Shown here: positions 3,153 to 13,265 of the stretch, one piece after another | Layout: each line of letters opens with the position of its first letter | Position numbering within the stretch: the stretch's first letter is position 1 | Source: Bacteroidota bacterium | GTDB lineage: Bacteria; Bacteroidota; Bacteroidia; Flavobacteriales; Flavobacteriaceae | Reading direction: 5' to 3' | Length of the DNA stretch: 22,005 nucleotides | Assembly: GCA_022560715.1 (NCBI GenBank) | Contig: JADFSQ010000002.1 | Span: 1 to 22,005, forward strand | Notes under the pieces: generated by a model | Databases searched by the model: none | What the model saw: only the letters and a program-made list of their open reading frames with translations | What the model was told of the DNA's origin: nothing | Position numbers and translations under genes: made by a program

Positions 3153-4225
3153 TTATCTTCAGGGTTTTGCTCTTCAATTAGTCCTAAACGTTTTGCTCTA
3201 TTTTCCCAAGCCTTTCTTGCCAATTTTTGAAGGTCTTCCACATTATCGCTTTCGTCCATAATTTCTAAACCCAAAAGAGTTTCTATAACATCTTCAAGAG
3301 TTACTATTCCGCTCACCGAGCCATATTCATCTACAACCAAAGAAATATGCTCTCTTTTTGCAATAAAAGTCTCAAACAACTCAGGAATTGGCAAATTTCT
3401 TGTGCTAACCAATAACTCTCGCTGTATGGATTTAAGCGATTTTCCTCCATTCCCATTTATTATCGCTTCAAGTAAGTTGTCTTTTAAAAAATATCCTGAT
3501 ATGTCATCGGTATTATCTCCATAAATTGGAATACGAGAAAACTTTAACTTCGGATTTGCATCAAAAAAGGATTTTATTTTCATTTTTTCGGAAGCAATTT
3601 TCATAACGGTTCGTGGTGTCATGATATCCTTTACATGGATTTCTTTAAGGTTGATGAGGTTTTTTATAATGGTACTTTCCGATTCTTGAAAAACGCCTTC
3701 CTCTTGAGCAATATCAGCCATAACATGAAAATCTTCACGACTTAAAACGCTAGCATGACCTCTTTTGCCAAACAGTTTTGTAACTAATTGTAAGGTCCAA
3801 ATAAAACCTGTCCATTTAAAGAAAAATATTAGGATGTTTAAAATTCGTGTAGAAATGCCTGCCAATTGTTTCCAATAAGATGCCCCAATAGTTTTAGGAA
3901 TAATTTCAGAAATTACTAAAATTAAAAGCGTCATTGCAGCAGATACAATTAGTATTGAATTATCGCCGTTACCGAAGACTTTTTCGGCTTGTACACCAAC
4001 TAAAATAGCACCAACAGTATGTGCAATGGTATTTAAAGTAAGAATTGCAATTAAGGGCTTATCGATATCTTCTTTAAGTATCTCGAGAGAAGAAGCAAAG
4101 ACTTTGCCTTCTTTCTTTTTTATATTGATAAAAGTTGGTGAGACACTCAATAAAACAGCTTCGAGAATAGAACATAAAAAAGAAATAAAAACAGAAATAA
4201 AGGCGTAAAAAACGAGTAATCCCAT
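3149..4225 (-). CDS. CNNM (DUF21) transmembrane and CBS-pair protein, CorC/HlyC-like family, short form
   Basis: The 358-residue inner-membrane protein has an N-terminal CNNM/DUF21 domain with hydrophobic segments at about 4-28, 58-80, 90-110 and 125-147, including the conserved SEIIPKTIG run (106-114). A cytoplasmic CBS pair follows, from VKDIMTPR (198-205) to VVDEYGSVSGIVTLEDVIE (297-315). Relatives are implicated in Mg2+ or other cation efflux, with CBS domains sensing nucleotides. It ends about 40 residues after the CBS pair with a charged tail and lacks the C-terminal CorC_HlyC domain of longer members. Its stop overlaps the methyltransferase start by 4 bases, and it begins 40 bp after the serine hydrolase gene. 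The transported ion cannot be told from sequence. Confidence 0.82.
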   Translation of the reverse strand: MGLLVFYAFISVFISFLCSILEAVLLSVSPTFINIKKKEGKVFASSLEILKEDIDKPLIAILTLNTIAHTVGAILVGVQAEKVFGNGDNSILIVSAAMTLLILVISEIIPKTIGASYWKQLAGISTRILNILIFFFKWTGFIWTLQLVTKLFGKRGHASVLSREDFHVMADIAQEEGVFQESESTIIKNLINLKEIHVKDIMTPRTVMKIASEKMKIKSFFDANPKLKFSRIPIYGDNTDDISGYFLKDNLLEAIINGNGGKSLKSIQRELLVSTRNLPIPELFETFIAKREHISLVVDEYGSVSGIVTLEDVIETLLGLEIMDESDNVEDLQKLARKAWENRAKRLGLIEEQNPEDK

Positions 4226-5589: not shown

Positions 5590-6579
5590 TTAAGAAATCA
5601 ATTTCACAATGTCTTTCGCGAAGTAACTGGCTATAATATCTGCTCCAGCACGTTTAAATGCCATTGTGGTTTCCATCATAATTTGGTCGTGGTCTAACCA
5701 GCCTTTTTCGGAAGCCGCTTTAATCATCGCATATTCACCACTTACCTGATACACAGCTACTGGAATATCGAATTTATTTTTTACATCTCTAACAATATCT
5801 AAATATGCCATTCCAGGTTTTACCATCACAATATCTGCACCTTCTTCAATATCCATTTCGGTTTCTCGAAGTGCTTCATGACGATTTGCAAAATCCATTT
5901 GATATGTCTTTTTGTTTTTGGGAACATTTACCAAATCTACAGGAGATGAATCTAAAGCATCCCGAAATGGGCCATAAAAAGCAGATGCATATTTTGCAGA
6001 GTAACTCATTATTCCTGTATCTGTAAAGCCTTCATCTTCTAATGCTTCCCTAATTGTGAGAATACGACCATCCATCATGTCGCTTGGTGCTACAAAATTT
6101 GCTCCCGCTTGCGCATGAGAGATACTCATTTCAGCTAAAAATTCAACAGTATCGTCGTTTATAATCTTTCCGTTTTTAACAATCCCATCATGGCCATAAA
6201 TAGAATAAGGGTCAAGAGCCACGTCTGTCATAACTAACATTTCTGGGCACACATTTTTCACTGTTTTAATAGCACGCTGCATTAATCCATTTGGATTTAA
6301 GGCTTCTTTTCCTGCATTGTCTTTTAAGTTGTCAGGCACTTTTACAAATAATAAAACCGATTTCAATCCAAGTGACCAAAGTGTTTTTACTTCATTCTCT
6401 AATACATCTAAACTGAATCTAAAATAGTTTGGCATGGAAGCAATATCTTCTTTAATACCTTTGCCATCTACTACAAAAAGCGGTACTAAAAAATCGTTTG
6501 GTGTAATTGTGTTTTCCCGAACTAAAGAACGAATAACTTCGTTGGTTCTTAATCGTCTATTTCTTCGTAATGGATACAT
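5590..6579 (-). CDS. hemB: Porphobilinogen synthase (delta-aminolevulinic acid dehydratase)
   Basis: HemB condenses two 5-aminolevulinate molecules into porphobilinogen in the cytoplasm. The 329-residue protein is full length. The two Schiff-base lysines are K196 (SYSAKYASAFYGPFR) and K254 (IVMVKPGMAYLD). The N-terminal arm RNRRLRTNEVIR is present. The metal region reads TDVALDPYSIYGHDGI (118-133): Asp and Ala replace the three cysteines of zinc enzymes, so this is the Asp-type, Mg2+-dependent variety. The start is ATG 6577-6579. It follows the RAYT-hemF gene by 54 bp, a gap that holds a short degenerate tandem repeat. Confidence 0.96.
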   Translation of the reverse strand: MYPLRRNRRLRTNEVIRSLVRENTITPNDFLVPLFVVDGKGIKEDIASMPNYFRFSLDVLENEVKTLWSLGLKSVLLFVKVPDNLKDNAGKEALNPNGLMQRAIKTVKNVCPEMLVMTDVALDPYSIYGHDGIVKNGKIINDDTVEFLAEMSISHAQAGANFVAPSDMMDGRILTIREALEDEGFTDTGIMSYSAKYASAFYGPFRDALDSSPVDLVNVPKNKKTYQMDFANRHEALRETEMDIEEGADIVMVKPGMAYLDIVRDVKNKFDIPVAVYQVSGEYAMIKAASEKGWLDHDQIMMETTMAFKRAGADIIASYFAKDIVKLIS

Positions 6580-6633: not shown

Positions 6634-8109
6634 CTAAATCCAATCTACAGGGTTTTTTAAAACTTCAATAAGTTTTTCTTCTTCGCTTCCTTTTTCAGGA
6701 TGATGGTTGTAAACCCATTGTACATGAGGCGGTAAACTCATCAAGATACTTTCTATTCTTCCGTTGGTTTTTAATCCGAAAAGTGTGCCTTTATCGTGAA
6801 CCAAATTAAATTCCACATAACGACCACGACGAATTTCCTGCCACGTCCTATTGGCTTCAGTATAAGGTAAATCCTTTCGTTTTTCAACAATAGGCACGTA
6901 AGATTCTAAAAAACTATCTCCAATTTCGGTTACAAAGTTATACCAATTTTCCATACTCATATCTTCGGATGCTTTGCAATAATCGAAAAACAAACCGCCA
7001 ATACCTCTTGCTTCATTACGGTGTGAGTTGTAAAAATAGTCGTCGCAACGTTTTTTATAGATTGAATAGAATTCGGGGTTATGCTGGTCGCAAGCCGTTT
7101 TACAAACCTGATGGAAGTGTTTGGCATCTTCTTCAAACAGATAATAAGGCGTTAAATCTTGTCCGCCACCAAACCAACTATCAACTACCTTTCCTTGTTT
7201 GTTATACATTTCAAAATAACGCCAATTTGCATGCACGGTAGGCAACATGGGGCTTTTAGGGTGCAGGACTAAACTTAAACCACAGGCATAAAAATTAGCC
7301 TCTTTTACGCCAAAATGTTTGCGCATGGTTTCTGGCAATTCTCCATGTACTGCCGAAATATTCACACCTCCTTTTTCAAAGATATCCCCATCTTGGATAA
7401 CTCGCGTTCTTCCTCCACCACCTTCTGGGCGTTCCCAAATATCTTCATGAAACTGTGCTTTGCCATCTATTGCTTCAAGTTTAGAAGTTATAGTGTCTTG
7501 TAAATCTTGAATATAATGATAGAACTTGTTTTTTAAAGATTTGTTTATACCTGTTAGGTTTTCAAAACCTGACAGGTCTTGTTCAATATCTTTATTGGTA
7601 TGCGTGTACATAAAGTTTTCCAGATTCTCGAAAAGACTTAAAACATAATCTTTCTTTGAAATAATTATATTTTTTTCTTCGAATAAAAAAGAGTTATACG
7701 AGGAGTATTTATATTCAGAAAAATTGGAAACCACATCATGCTTTTGTGGATTTTTATGAATGTATAATATCAGTTTTTTTAAGTAGTCTTCATTTTTTAT
7801 GTGAACACGCTTAAAAGGTCTTTCAAATAGAGTGCCTGTTCTTGAGTTTTTTTTGTTAAAAGCTTTGGTATAAGAATTAAATAAATTTGAAAAGGCTTGA
7901 GACACTTCTTTTCCATCAACTAAAATTTCAACTGCTAAATGAAAATGATTATTCATTAAACAGTAAGCGAGAACGTTAGCTTTAGATTTTAAATGAAGTC
8001 CTATCAATTTTATAAAATAAGTCATATTATATTCATTTTTGAATATAATTGCACTATTTATTCCTCTGTTGAAAATATGATAATGCTGTCCTTTTTCTAG
8101 TCTCTCCAC
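6634..8109 (-). CDS. hemF: Fusion of REP-associated tyrosine transposase (Y1_Tnp) with oxygen-dependent coproporphyrinogen III oxidase
   Basis: One uninterrupted 491-codon frame. Residues 1 to about 177 are a RAYT/Y1_Tnp domain: start MERLEKGQHYHIFNRGINS, HUH motif H55-F-H57 inside MNNHFHL, and YIHKNP with candidate catalytic Y116. Residues 178-187 are encoded by a REP palindrome. From about residue 192 the rest is a complete HemF: WERPEGGGGRTRV (225-237), GGVNISAVHGELP, HANWRYFE, DSWFGGGQDLTPYY (310-323), RNEARGIGGLFFDY and RRGRYVEFNLV, ending PVDWI. HemF oxidatively decarboxylates coproporphyrinogen III to protoporphyrinogen IX with O2. The start is GTG at 8107-8109. No in-frame ATG, GTG or TTG exists between the palindrome and the WERPEGG core, so HemF is made either as this fusion or from the internal ATG at 7609-7611 (M167). 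The gene sits in hemF's usual place between hemE and hemB. Confidence 0.9.
   Translation of the reverse strand: MERLEKGQHYHIFNRGINSAIIFKNEYNMTYFIKLIGLHLKSKANVLAYCLMNNHFHLAVEILVDGKEVSQAFSNLFNSYTKAFNKKNSRTGTLFERPFKRVHIKNEDYLKKLILYIHKNPQKHDVVSNFSEYKYSSYNSFLFEEKNIIISKKDYVLSLFENLENFMYTHTNKDIEQDLSGFENLTGINKSLKNKFYHYIQDLQDTITSKLEAIDGKAQFHEDIWERPEGGGGRTRVIQDGDIFEKGGVNISAVHGELPETMRKHFGVKEANFYACGLSLVLHPKSPMLPTVHANWRYFEMYNKQGKVVDSWFGGGQDLTPYYLFEEDAKHFHQVCKTACDQHNPEFYSIYKKRCDDYFYNSHRNEARGIGGLFFDYCKASEDMSMENWYNFVTEIGDSFLESYVPIVEKRKDLPYTEANRTWQEIRRGRYVEFNLVHDKGTLFGLKTNGRIESILMSLPPHVQWVYNHHPEKGSEEEKLIEVLKNPVDWI
7549..7578. repeat. REP-like palindrome, inner copy, inside the RAYT-hemF reading frame
   Basis: Left arm 7549-7562 (acctgttaggtttt) and right arm 7564-7577 pair at 13 of 14 positions around one central base. 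Read on the minus strand it codes for residues 178-187 of the fusion protein. It matches the copy at 8129-8161 almost exactly, so the RAYT coding part is bracketed by two palindromes, the organisation typical of a RAYT with its REP partners. Confidence 0.85.
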
Positions 8110-8128: not shown

Positions 8129-8161
8129 AGACCTGTCAGGTTTTTAAAACCTGACAGGTCT
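8129..8161. repeat. REP-like palindrome, outer copy, 20 bp before the RAYT start
   Basis: Perfect 16-bp arms flank a single central T: left arm agacctgtcaggtttt at 8129-8144, and right arm its reverse complement at 8146-8161. It lies between the end of hemE (8183) and the GTG start of the RAYT-hemF gene (8109). The same motif recurs at 7549-7578 and, decayed, at 13234-13265. As RNA it would form a very stable hairpin at the end of the hemE message, close to the start of the fusion gene. Confidence 0.88.
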
Positions 8162-8182: not shown

Positions 8183-9208
8183 TTATACTTCATACTCTTT
8201 CACAGCATCAATAAACGCCTTGGCATTATCTAATGGAATGTTTGGCAAAATACCATGGCCTAAATTAACAATATATTTGTCTTTGCCAAAATCGTTAATC
8301 ATTTGGTGTACCATTTTTTTAATTTCTGATGGAGGTGAAAGTAAGCGAGAAGGGTCAAAATTACCTTGAAGGGTAATGTTTCCGCCAGTTAAATAGCGTG
8401 CGTTTTGTGCCGTAATAGTCCAGTCAATCCCTAAAGCGGAAGCATTGCTTTTCGCCATTTCGTTTAATGCAAACCAACATCCTTTTCCGAAGGCAATTAC
8501 TGGAGCATCATCTTTTAAGGCTTCAATAATTTGATTGATATATTTCCACGAAAACTCTTGATAATCGGTAGGAGACAACATTCCTCCCCAAGAATCAAAA
8601 ATTTGTACTACATCTACTCCAGCATTTACTTTTGCTTTTAAATAAGCTATAGTAGTATCGGTAATTTTTTGCAATAATTGATGCGCTGCAATAGGATTTG
8701 TAAAACAAAATTCTTTTGCTTTATCGAAGGTTTTAGAGCCTTGACCTTGTACGCAGTAACATAAAATAGTCCAGGGAGAACCTGCAAAACCGATTAAAGG
8801 AATCTCGTTATTCAACAACTCTTTAGTTGCTTTTATGGCTTGCATTACGTAATCTAACTCAACATTTACATCTGGGACAATGACATTATCTACTCCTTTT
8901 TGGTCGCGAACAGGATTTGGAAGATAAGGGCCAAAATCAGGTTTCATTTGCACCTCAATATTCATCGCTTGTGGGATTACCAGAATATCGCAAAATAAAA
9001 TTGCAGCATCCATCCCAAAACGGCGAATGGGTTGTACCGTAATTTCGCTTGCTAATTCTGGGGTTCGGCAACGTGTAAAAAAATCGTACTTATCACGAAT
9101 TGCAATAAATTCTGGTAAGAAACGTCCAGCTTGACGCATCATCCAAACTGGAGGGCGCTCTACAGTTTCGCCTTTTAAAGCTCTTAAAAATAAGTCGTTT
9201 TTTATCAT
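8183..9208 (-). CDS. hemE: Uroporphyrinogen decarboxylase
   Basis: HemE removes the four acetate carboxyl groups of uroporphyrinogen III to give coproporphyrinogen III, the substrate of the next gene's HemF domain. The 341-residue protein is full length and has the signature [17 protein letters not shown] (18-34) with substrate-binding R25 and R29. The proposed catalytic Asp is D74 in LFCDILVIP, and the conserved C-terminal LGHGILP contains H318. The start at ATG 9206-9208 matches the usual N-terminus ([13 protein letters not shown]). It follows the hemC-hemD gene by 100 bp; that gap holds two palindromic repeats. It precedes the RAYT-hemF gene by 73 bp. Cytoplasmic. Confidence 0.96.
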
Positions 9209-9308: not shown

Positions 9309-10883
9309 TTAAACATAATTCAAATTCACTAATTCTATTACACTTTCAACAGTTGGAACTTTAGCAACTCTAACATCTTTAAAATGTTTTGATGCTTCTG
9401 TAGCTGTTGTTTCACCAATACAAAAAGCAATCTTATCTCCATTGTTTTCTAACAAATAACTTTTTATTGTTGATGGACTGTAAAACATTACACCTTCTAC
9501 TTTTTCATCAATTTTTATTGAAGCCAATCTCGTACTGTATGCTTCAATTTCATTTACAGTAATGTGATTTTTGGTTAGAATATTTGGTAAATCATCAAGA
9601 TGTAAATCACTACAAAAATAAGTGACTTCAGTACCTTCAATATATTCTACGAGATATTTAGCTAACTTTTTAGCGTTTGGTTCAGAATGTGTGACTTTTC
9701 CAATTTTTTGTTCTATCAAACGCTTTGTTCGTCTGCCAACGCAATAGATATTTTTGAATTGTAATTCTTCCGCAGAAATATTTGTGATTAATGATTCAAC
9801 AGCATTTTTGCTGGTAATAATCACATTTTTAATTTCGGATTTTAAAATGAACGGATTTATTCTATTAATATTAATTTGAATAAAATCACTGCTTTCAACG
9901 TTAATATCGTTATGAAACAAATCTGATTGTGAGTTTGATAGTGATTTTGTAGAATATACAGTTACTTTTTTATCTACTTGCTTTAATTCATTCATCAATC
10001 GTTTTCCACCACGTTCGATAATAAAATTTGCACAGTAGGCAGCCATATCCTGATGTTCGCCTAATTTTTCGTTTCGAGTAACTTCAATCTTTTTTGTTCC
10101 GTCAATATTTAAAAGCACGCCTTGAAATGATACTTGCTCATCTTTTATAAAAGCAATTGCTCCAATTGGAGCTGTACAACCACCTTCTAAAAGATTTAAA
10201 AACTGACGCTCAATAGAAGTGCAAATTTCTGTTTCCTCATGGTTTAATTCGGCACAAATAGCTTTTATATCTTCATCTTCATCTAAAACGGTAATCATTA
10301 TTGCTCCTTGTGCCGGAGCAGGAATCATCCAATCTAAATTGATTGCGTTTTTAGGTCTTAATCCGATTCGCCCTAAACCAGCAGCAGCGAAAATGGCTCC
10401 ATTCCAATCGTTGTTTTCTAATTTTTGTAAACGAGTATTTACATTACCACGTAAATCTACAATCGTGTGAGTTGGATATCGATTTAACCATTGCGCTCTA
10501 CGGCGTAAACTACCAGTAGCAATAACAGCATCTCGTTGAGATAAAAACTCTTCATTATTTTTATAAACGAGAGTGTCTCTTATATTTCCCCGTTTTAAAA
10601 CTGCAGCTTGCACAATACCTTTTGGTAAAATTGTTGGTACATCTTTAAAGGAGTGCACAGCAATATCGATATCGTTATTGAGCATTGCGATATCTAATGT
10701 ACGTGTAAAAATCCCAGTAATTCCGAGTTTGTACAAAGGTTTATCTAAAACTAAATCTCCAGTAGATTTTTCAGGGACTAACACGGTTTTGTGACCGAGT
10801 TGTTCCAACATTTGTTGTACAGTTTTTGCCTGCCAAAGAGCAAGTTGGCTCTCACGTGTGCCAATTCTAATAATTTTAGACAT
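9309..10883 (-). CDS. hemC-hemD: Bifunctional hydroxymethylbilane synthase / uroporphyrinogen-III synthase
   Basis: This 524-residue fusion covers two successive pathway steps. Residues 1 to about 303 are HemC, which polymerises four porphobilinogens into hydroxymethylbilane: start IRIGTRESQLALWQA, catalytic D81 in HSFKDVP, GSLRRRAQ, and dipyrromethane-cofactor cysteine C236 in LLEGGCTAPIGA. Residues about 306-524 have the HemD fold, which closes and inverts ring D: IITSKNAVESL, the run GVMFYSPSTIKSYL and CIGETTATEA. Fusion may hand the unstable linear tetrapyrrole directly to HemD and limit non-enzymatic cyclisation (inference). The HemD half is weakly conserved in sequence, as is normal for the family. 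The ATG at 10881-10883 overlaps the end of hemA by 8 bases. Confidence 0.92.
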   Translation of the reverse strand: MSKIIRIGTRESQLALWQAKTVQQMLEQLGHKTVLVPEKSTGDLVLDKPLYKLGITGIFTRTLDIAMLNNDIDIAVHSFKDVPTILPKGIVQAAVLKRGNIRDTLVYKNNEEFLSQRDAVIATGSLRRRAQWLNRYPTHTIVDLRGNVNTRLQKLENNDWNGAIFAAAGLGRIGLRPKNAINLDWMIPAPAQGAIMITVLDEDEDIKAICAELNHEETEICTSIERQFLNLLEGGCTAPIGAIAFIKDEQVSFQGVLLNIDGTKKIEVTRNEKLGEHQDMAAYCANFIIERGGKRLMNELKQVDKKVTVYSTKSLSNSQSDLFHNDINVESSDFIQININRINPFILKSEIKNVIITSKNAVESLITNISAEELQFKNIYCVGRRTKRLIEQKIGKVTHSEPNAKKLAKYLVEYIEGTEVTYFCSDLHLDDLPNILTKNHITVNEIEAYSTRLASIKIDEKVEGVMFYSPSTIKSYLLENNGDKIAFCIGETTATEASKHFKDVRVAKVPTVESVIELVNLNYV

Positions 10884-13233: not shown

Positions 13234-13265
13234 AGACCTGTCAGGTTTTTAAAACCTTATAGGTT
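13234..13265. repeat. Decayed third copy of the REP-like palindrome, upstream of hemH
   Basis: The left half (13234-13250) is identical to the outer RAYT-flanking copy at 8129-8145. The right half (13251-13265) keeps aaaacct and aggt but differs at three positions. It lies after the regulator's stop codon and ends 17 bp before the hemH start, so the hemH leader would carry a partly paired hairpin. It shows the element spreading, or once spreading, within this locus. Confidence 0.75.

Follow-up and report, generated by a model that had tools for sequence, protein, structure and literature searches.

A RAYT gene and hemF share one open frame, with a REP palindrome as the putative linker, in many Flavobacteriaceae

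We report a gene in which a RAYT (TnpA-REP) domain and a complete HemF share a single open frame and show that the same arrangement recurs in the Flavobacteriaceae. A REPtron lying beside hemF has probably become the 5′ half of that gene, likely giving a two-domain protein that combines an active nuclease with a working HemF.

Results

Anatomy of the fusion gene

The window, that is, the whole stretch of 22,005 nucleotides that was analyzed, contains an open frame with a GTG start that encodes 491 amino acids (Table 1). Its HemF half matches PF01218 with 448.8 bits and NF003727 over its full length with 418.9 bits (cut-off, 297), and it has a fold match to 2aex. The RAYT half has a fold match to 4er8, a REP-bound TnpA-REP, and lies between two REP palindromes that belong to a set of 10 copies in the genome. 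It scores 54 to 57 bits against NCBIfam NF047646, below the 80-bit cut-off, and sits on a divergent branch; therefore, we call it a RAYT by motif, fold, and REPs and not as an NF047646 equivalog. Further upstream, positions 9309 to 10883 on the minus strand hold one 524-amino-acid frame, which looks like HemC joined to HemD.

Table 1. Features of the RAYT-HemF gene and its surroundings in the window
Feature	Position	Strand	Remark
RAYT-HemF fusion gene	6634..8109	-	Open frame; 60 fused relatives
RAYT (TnpA-REP) domain, residues 1-177	7579..8109	-	
HUH motif H55-F56-H57	7939..7947	-	H55 in 59/60 and H57 in 60/60 fused proteins
Catalytic tyrosine Y116 (YIHKNP)	7762..7764	-	60/60 fused proteins
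REP palindrome in gene, translated DLSGFENLTG (residues 178-187), putative linker	7549..7579	.	Repeat family D1/I2
Loop codon GAA (E183)	7561..7563	-	Polaribacter L093 has TAA at the same place
HemF (oxygen-dependent coproporphyrinogen oxidase) domain, residues 193-491	6637..7533	-	
ATG of M167, closest candidate internal HemF start	7609..7611	-	29 codons ahead of HemF
Upstream REP palindrome, interval between hemE and RAYT start	8129..8161	.	
Third palindrome copy in the window	13234..13264	.	Extragenic, imperfect
hemE, upstream flank	8183..9208	-	About 76 nt from RAYT start (script estimate)
hemB, downstream flank	5590..6579	-	

The preliminary description of this DNA had reported a Y1_Tnp domain in frame with HemF between hemE (upstream) and hemB (downstream), had named H55, H57, and Y116 as motif residues, and had suggested searching for other such proteins. 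The open frame, both flanks, and the three residues are all present, and a search with the RAYT part recovered 60 fusions among database proteins. The same description had considered a sequencing error that hides a stop or frameshift. The source genome is fragmented (444 contigs, 81.6% complete), which would favor an assembly or sequencing error; yet the architecture recurs in the 60 proteins and in the single-contig genomes G266, G175, G186, and G143. An error as the origin of this architecture is thus hardly conceivable, and the fusion is neither an assembly artifact nor peculiar to this genome.

Distribution in Flavobacteriaceae

The RAYT-part search covered about 5.8 billion proteins, with candidates limited to 0.55 to 1.75 times 491 amino acids. 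Of the 62 proteins matched, 60 (387 to 531 amino acids) combine RAYT with HemF, and the other two, of 276 and 288 amino acids, are RAYT proteins; within the reach of this 62-match search, HemF is the sole fusion partner of this RAYT branch. Among 299 genomes drawn from the family, 254 gave any match and at least 13 carry the fusion, nine as one match and four as two matches that were confirmed in DNA. At least 80 RAYT loci (80 of 537 matches) came from the named genome collection, and DNA was read for 39 fused genes (37 distinct). By record titles, the latter belong to at least nine genera, namely, Winogradskyella, Flavivirga, Algibacter, Aequorivita, Gelidibacter, Hanstruepera, Polaribacter, Maribacter, and Luteirhabdus; the protein search adds Olleya, Mariniflexile, and Hyunsoonleella. 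RAYT adjoins hemF without being fused to it in Flavobacterium, Arenibacter, Mesonia, and Dokdonia. The fusion had been pictured as a possible one-off snapshot, a view that this distribution does not support: RAYT is a long-standing neighbor of hemF that has been fused to it recurrently.

No publication on a RAYT-HemF fusion was found in the open-access papers that were searched. Some fusions are named “coproporphyrinogen III oxidase/REP element-mobilizing transposase RayT” in JGI records, by automatic annotation.

The linker as a translated REP palindrome

In the window, the in-frame linker contains ACCTGTTAGGTTTTCAAAACCTGACAGGT, which has a matching counterpart about 50 nt ahead of the gene start; the palindrome is one of 10 copies in its own genome. 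The preliminary description saw the fusion itself and missed that its linker reads as a translated REP palindrome. Residues 183 to 190, in or near the linker, are the lowest short stretch of the structure model. A linker hairpin with at least 10 of 14 pairs is found in 31 of the 37 distinct loci (32 by the script rule, minus L050, a trinucleotide run), and none of this quality is found in L083, L089, L098, L113, and L114. Upstream of the gene, 34 of the 37 have a hairpin with at least 11 of 14 pairs. Judged by eye, linker and upstream copies are often of one lineage-specific kind, such as CCTGTCAGG, CCTACAAGG/CCTTGCAGG, a GACCC type in Luteirhabdus, or CCTGACAGG in G153, and they are unlike each other in L075, L079, and L082. 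The 27 distinct linker 31-mers pair at 92%; 500 shuffles gave 83% on average and at most 88%. This result is weak because the 31-mers were chosen for self-complementarity. One paired change is seen in the L077 linker.

Translated in the DLSGF-NLTG frame, the canonical palindrome stays open unless its loop codon is TAA. This is the case for the Polaribacter locus L093, where RAYT ends in DLQGF and hemF begins 28 nt further on in the same frame. The proposal that the fusion arose by loss of the RAYT stop codon is supported by this locus, which keeps the stop within the palindrome loop. In Winogradskyella, linkers of the RPARFEKPARS kind derive from a related palindrome translated in another frame, which argues for more than one fusion event. 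Across the 39 DNA loci, the joined frame is open despite varied linker lengths and REP types.

Two further kinds of linker were seen. RPARSS-kind linkers (P0014, P0016, P0022, P0026, P0027, L050, and L089) resemble RPARFEKPARSS minus the hairpin center, as would result if a REP collapsed without loss of frame. Those of L125, L153, L154, L155, and L156 contain two tandem REP-like stretches, a DLQGF type followed by an NLQGLKDLVG type; judging by sequence, this is a REP doublet translated within the protein.

Internal starts and the HemF half

The two halves could instead be made separately, with HemF translated from an internal start and the joined frame a neutral by-product of gene packing. 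In keeping with this alternative, 13 of the 39 loci have an ATG no more than 5 codons from the start of HemF, and the nearest start codon in the window is the ATG of M167, 29 codons ahead of HemF. The other 26 loci have no ATG within 5 codons, however, and the linker lacks ATG in 25 of 39 and all of ATG, GTG, and TTG in 19. In 14 of the 37 distinct loci, the nearest of these codons is more than 30 codons upstream, i.e., inside RAYT, and the frame remains open across differing linker lengths and REP types. Separate initiation of HemF is therefore unlikely in many carriers but may occur in the window and in the 13 loci with a nearby ATG; taken as a whole, we regard separate products as unlikely. 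From the sequences, we infer fusion at the protein level.

Every fused genome tested (13/13) has exactly one HemF, the fused copy, and all 13 also encode HemN, so losing HemF is not necessarily fatal. Hence, the earlier suggestion that a mobile element captured an essential gene is doubtful as far as “essential” is concerned; HemF as the only coproporphyrinogen oxidase was rejected on the same count. A 482-codon HemF frame in G061, considered as another fusion, proved in DNA to be an ordinary HemF of 310 codons.

Catalytic residues and selection on the RAYT half

H55, H57, and Y116 are all intact in 38 of the 39 DNA loci. H55 is replaced by Q in one DNA locus (L156) and in one protein (P0049), and these two fused RAYTs may possibly have lost catalysis. 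Rates were compared in the 39 listed pairs whose RAYTs are at least 72% identical, some of which recur through the duplicate L073. Where dS is finite, dN/dS in fused pairs is 0.05 to 0.23 for RAYT and 0.03 to 0.14 for HemF; both halves are under purifying selection.

Gene neighborhood and phylogeny

The order hemE, RAYT, hemF, read 5′ to 3′, is found in 27 of 39 fused loci, with hemE out of view in the other 12, and in 17 of 20 unfused loci; RAYT precedes hemE in the remaining three (Mesonia, Flavobacterium rakeshii, and G011). The distance to hemE varies. The end of hemE is at most 300 nt from the RAYT start in three fused loci (the window, L078, and L079) and 0.7 to 2.8 kb away in 24, and 11 of the 12 loci where hemE was unseen have at most 1.5 kb of upstream DNA, the other, L076, having 3.5 kb. 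The notion of a cassette that invariably adjoins hemE was thus dropped, as it holds in 3 of 39 fused loci. An empty site is found in G002, of the same genus as the window, where one base separates the hemE stop from the hemF ATG and there is no RAYT. DNA identity between G002 and the window is 81 to 100% per 60 nt across hemE, falls to next to no match over the roughly 650 nt between hemE and hemF, and resumes at the hemF start. Insertion at the start of hemF, as the preliminary description had it, agrees with this empty site.

RAYT and HemF trees were built by quick searches with SH-aLRT support only and midpoint rooting. In the RAYT tree, a branch with SH-aLRT 99 sets the hemF-linked RAYTs apart: 63 rows (40 fused, 20 adjacent, and 3 unlinked in the DNA examined) are separated by it from 36 others. 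The fused label requires 4 changes on the RAYT tree versus 19 on the HemF tree, where 42 rows are labeled as without RAYT, 22 by tblastn and the others by HemF-length frames; starred branches force at least one and at least six of these changes, respectively. The tblastn of the 22 loci gave one match, L027, with RAYT before hemE. Overall, fusions cluster on the RAYT tree and are scattered on the HemF tree.

Replacement of the RAYT-REP unit

Winogradskyella psychrotolerans D3R19 (L089) and RS-3 (L126) have HemF sequences that are 97% identical, RAYTs that are 54% identical, and linkers of different types. Their DNA identity drops about 100 to 150 nt before the RAYT start and is back at the start of hemF. 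dS is ordinary in both flanks, 0.55 for hemE and 0.73 for hemF, and is 3.1 (1.26 to saturated) for RAYT, values above about 1 being rough, and dN is 0.38 for RAYT versus 0.016 for hemE and 0.022 for hemF. The same local divergence of RAYT is seen in L080/L126, L089/L111, and L085/L100, while L100/L111, L073/L074, and L083/L084 show no gap between RAYT and its flanks. These local gaps indicate that the RAYT-REP unit has been replaced several times just upstream of hemF, either by the action of RAYT or by homologous recombination in the flanking genes. For L077/L081, the dS of RAYT, 0.45 (0.29 to 0.67), is lower than that of hemE, 0.67, and of hemF, 0.99 (0.72 to 1.33), which hints at a transferred RAYT. 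RAYT and HemF identities over 666 fused pairs give an r of 0.47; thus, vertical descent also plays a part.

Descent alone, with a single ancient fusion passed on vertically, repeated losses, and no exchange of cassettes, would explain why fused RAYTs cluster and why starred branches force just one change on their tree. It is nevertheless very improbable, given the mismatch between local RAYT and HemF divergence in four Winogradskyella pairs, the at least two palindrome reading frames used in linkers, and the six or more changes forced on the HemF tree.

REP copies elsewhere in the genomes

Copies of either of two REP patterns were found in 12 of the 13 fused genomes and in 4 of the 20 unfused ones (Fisher p 5.9e-5), counts that include copies at the gene itself; the unfused genomes used for comparison lack phylogenetic independence, and other RAYTs are present in some of them. 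The patterns read backwards, as a control, gave no match in the 33 genomes. Counted by hand among the copies listed, at least two lie away from the gene in 11 of 13 fused versus 3 of 20 unfused genomes. Neither pattern is present in the fused genome G093, which is consistent with its different palindrome, and G171 and G150, which are also fused, have few apart from those at the gene.

Of the copies inspected elsewhere, most lie outside long frames: the 16 REP loci of G266 and G278 include a single one within such a frame, namely, the linker copy. We discarded the idea that REPs enter genes in frame as a rule: in three genomes, just 3 of 24 copies (26 loci were tried, 2 of which were not re-found by pattern) are situated 100 or more codons inside a frame, and one of these is the RAYT-HemF linker of G278. 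The script scored the copy nearest the locus center and thus left the window linker unscored. The flanks of 10 REP copies in the window's own genome were also read, unscored, for a GTAG-type tetranucleotide at the REP foot; GTAG occurs beside none of the CCTGTCAGG type; the CCTTGTAGG type itself contains GTAG.

The same genome holds other associations of this sort. On contigs C301 and C60, a REP copy reads as the translated C-terminal tail DLSGFKNLTGL of two proteins, presumably MobA-like and aminotransferase-like, respectively. Contig C96 carries a second RAYT of 173 amino acids (L004, 1477 to 1998), flanked by REPs of the other type at 3232 to 3258 and 3816 to 3842; it lacks the YIHKNP segment and so looks dead. 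At the end of contig C71 (L003, 1 to 1671), a methylase-like frame continues into part of a Y1_Tnp domain; this could be another kind of transposase fusion, or the contig could be misassembled.

Discussion

We favor a scenario in which a REPtron, a RAYT gene between its own REP palindromes, would have taken up residence beside hemF in the Flavobacteriaceae and become the 5′ half of that gene here and in many relatives. A stop codon was probably lost inside the REP loop, so that the downstream REP, read in a stop-free frame, would form the linker. The gene most likely yields a two-domain protein, presumably made and stable, with a flexible linker. Its RAYT half would be an active HUH-Y1 nuclease that acts on, and presumably cleaves, single-stranded REP hairpins genome-wide, and its HemF half would be a working enzyme. 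Tying a heme gene to the RAYT frame may help RAYT persist.

RAYT and its two hairpins could alternatively serve translational or transcriptional control of heme synthesis, REP spread being secondary. Such a device would fit the hairpins before the start and within the frame, the purifying selection on RAYT, and its long association with hem genes. But fusions are patchy on the HemF tree and RAYTs can differ by 50% beside near-identical HemF, which fits a guest better than a regulator, and unfused relatives manage without RAYT; a control function is accordingly improbable.

Returning to the REPtron as guest, we tentatively extend the scenario, in a form that may well prove wrong: the 5′ end of hemF could be a preferred home of the REP-RAYT cassette, replaced as a unit and ending in a REP that can be translated in the HemF frame, with each arrival yielding a RAYT-HemF protein and welding averting loss. 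Proteins of the HemF family are homodimers. If HemF is a homodimer here as well, fusion would pair two RAYT active sites, which could then act on REP doublets.

The persistence of RAYTs, domesticated transposases with a wide distribution, is unexplained. Many carriers cannot remove RAYT from the frame without touching the heme gene, and as a recurrent natural arrangement in culturable marine bacteria, the fusion makes the question of RAYT maintenance testable. It also presents REPs as protein linkers and REP-RAYT cassettes as units replaced at one site. On the practical side, some public “coproporphyrinogen oxidase” entries of about 490 to 530 amino acids hide an unlabeled nuclease domain. PMC3116915 describes RAYTs as single-copy genes that are apparently unable to move themselves and asks what prevents their extinction; if the preferred-home reading is true, welding to a metabolic gene would be a domesticated transposase's escape from loss.

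Compared with ordinary HemF (PF01218, 2aex), the protein shares the full-length domain, the fold, and the presence of other hem genes nearby; it differs in its N-terminal RAYT of about 180 residues, and the window has no ATG at the usual HemF start. With known RAYTs and REPtrons, as described in PMC6006769, PMC8266576 (which treats TnpA-REP as a domesticated transposase), and PMC3116915 and as represented by 4er8, it shares the HUH-Y1 motifs, the fold, the flanking REPs, and the genomic REP copies; the differences here are the fusion to HemF and the translation of the downstream REP. A parallel by description is TnpA-Y1 subclass 2.4 (PMC6006769), also from Bacteroidetes, in which frame-keeping REPs are inserted within the RAYT gene between HuH and Y; here, the REP comes after the RAYT core and is followed by a different enzyme. 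That study discarded unexpectedly long proteins, and the word coproporphyrinogen is absent from its main text. Palindromic repeats translated inside protein genes are likewise known from Rickettsia, where, in the account of PMC10969869, elements of about 150 bp lie in frame within many unrelated genes, whereas the element described here is about 31 nt long, occupies one gene, and joins that gene to RAYT.
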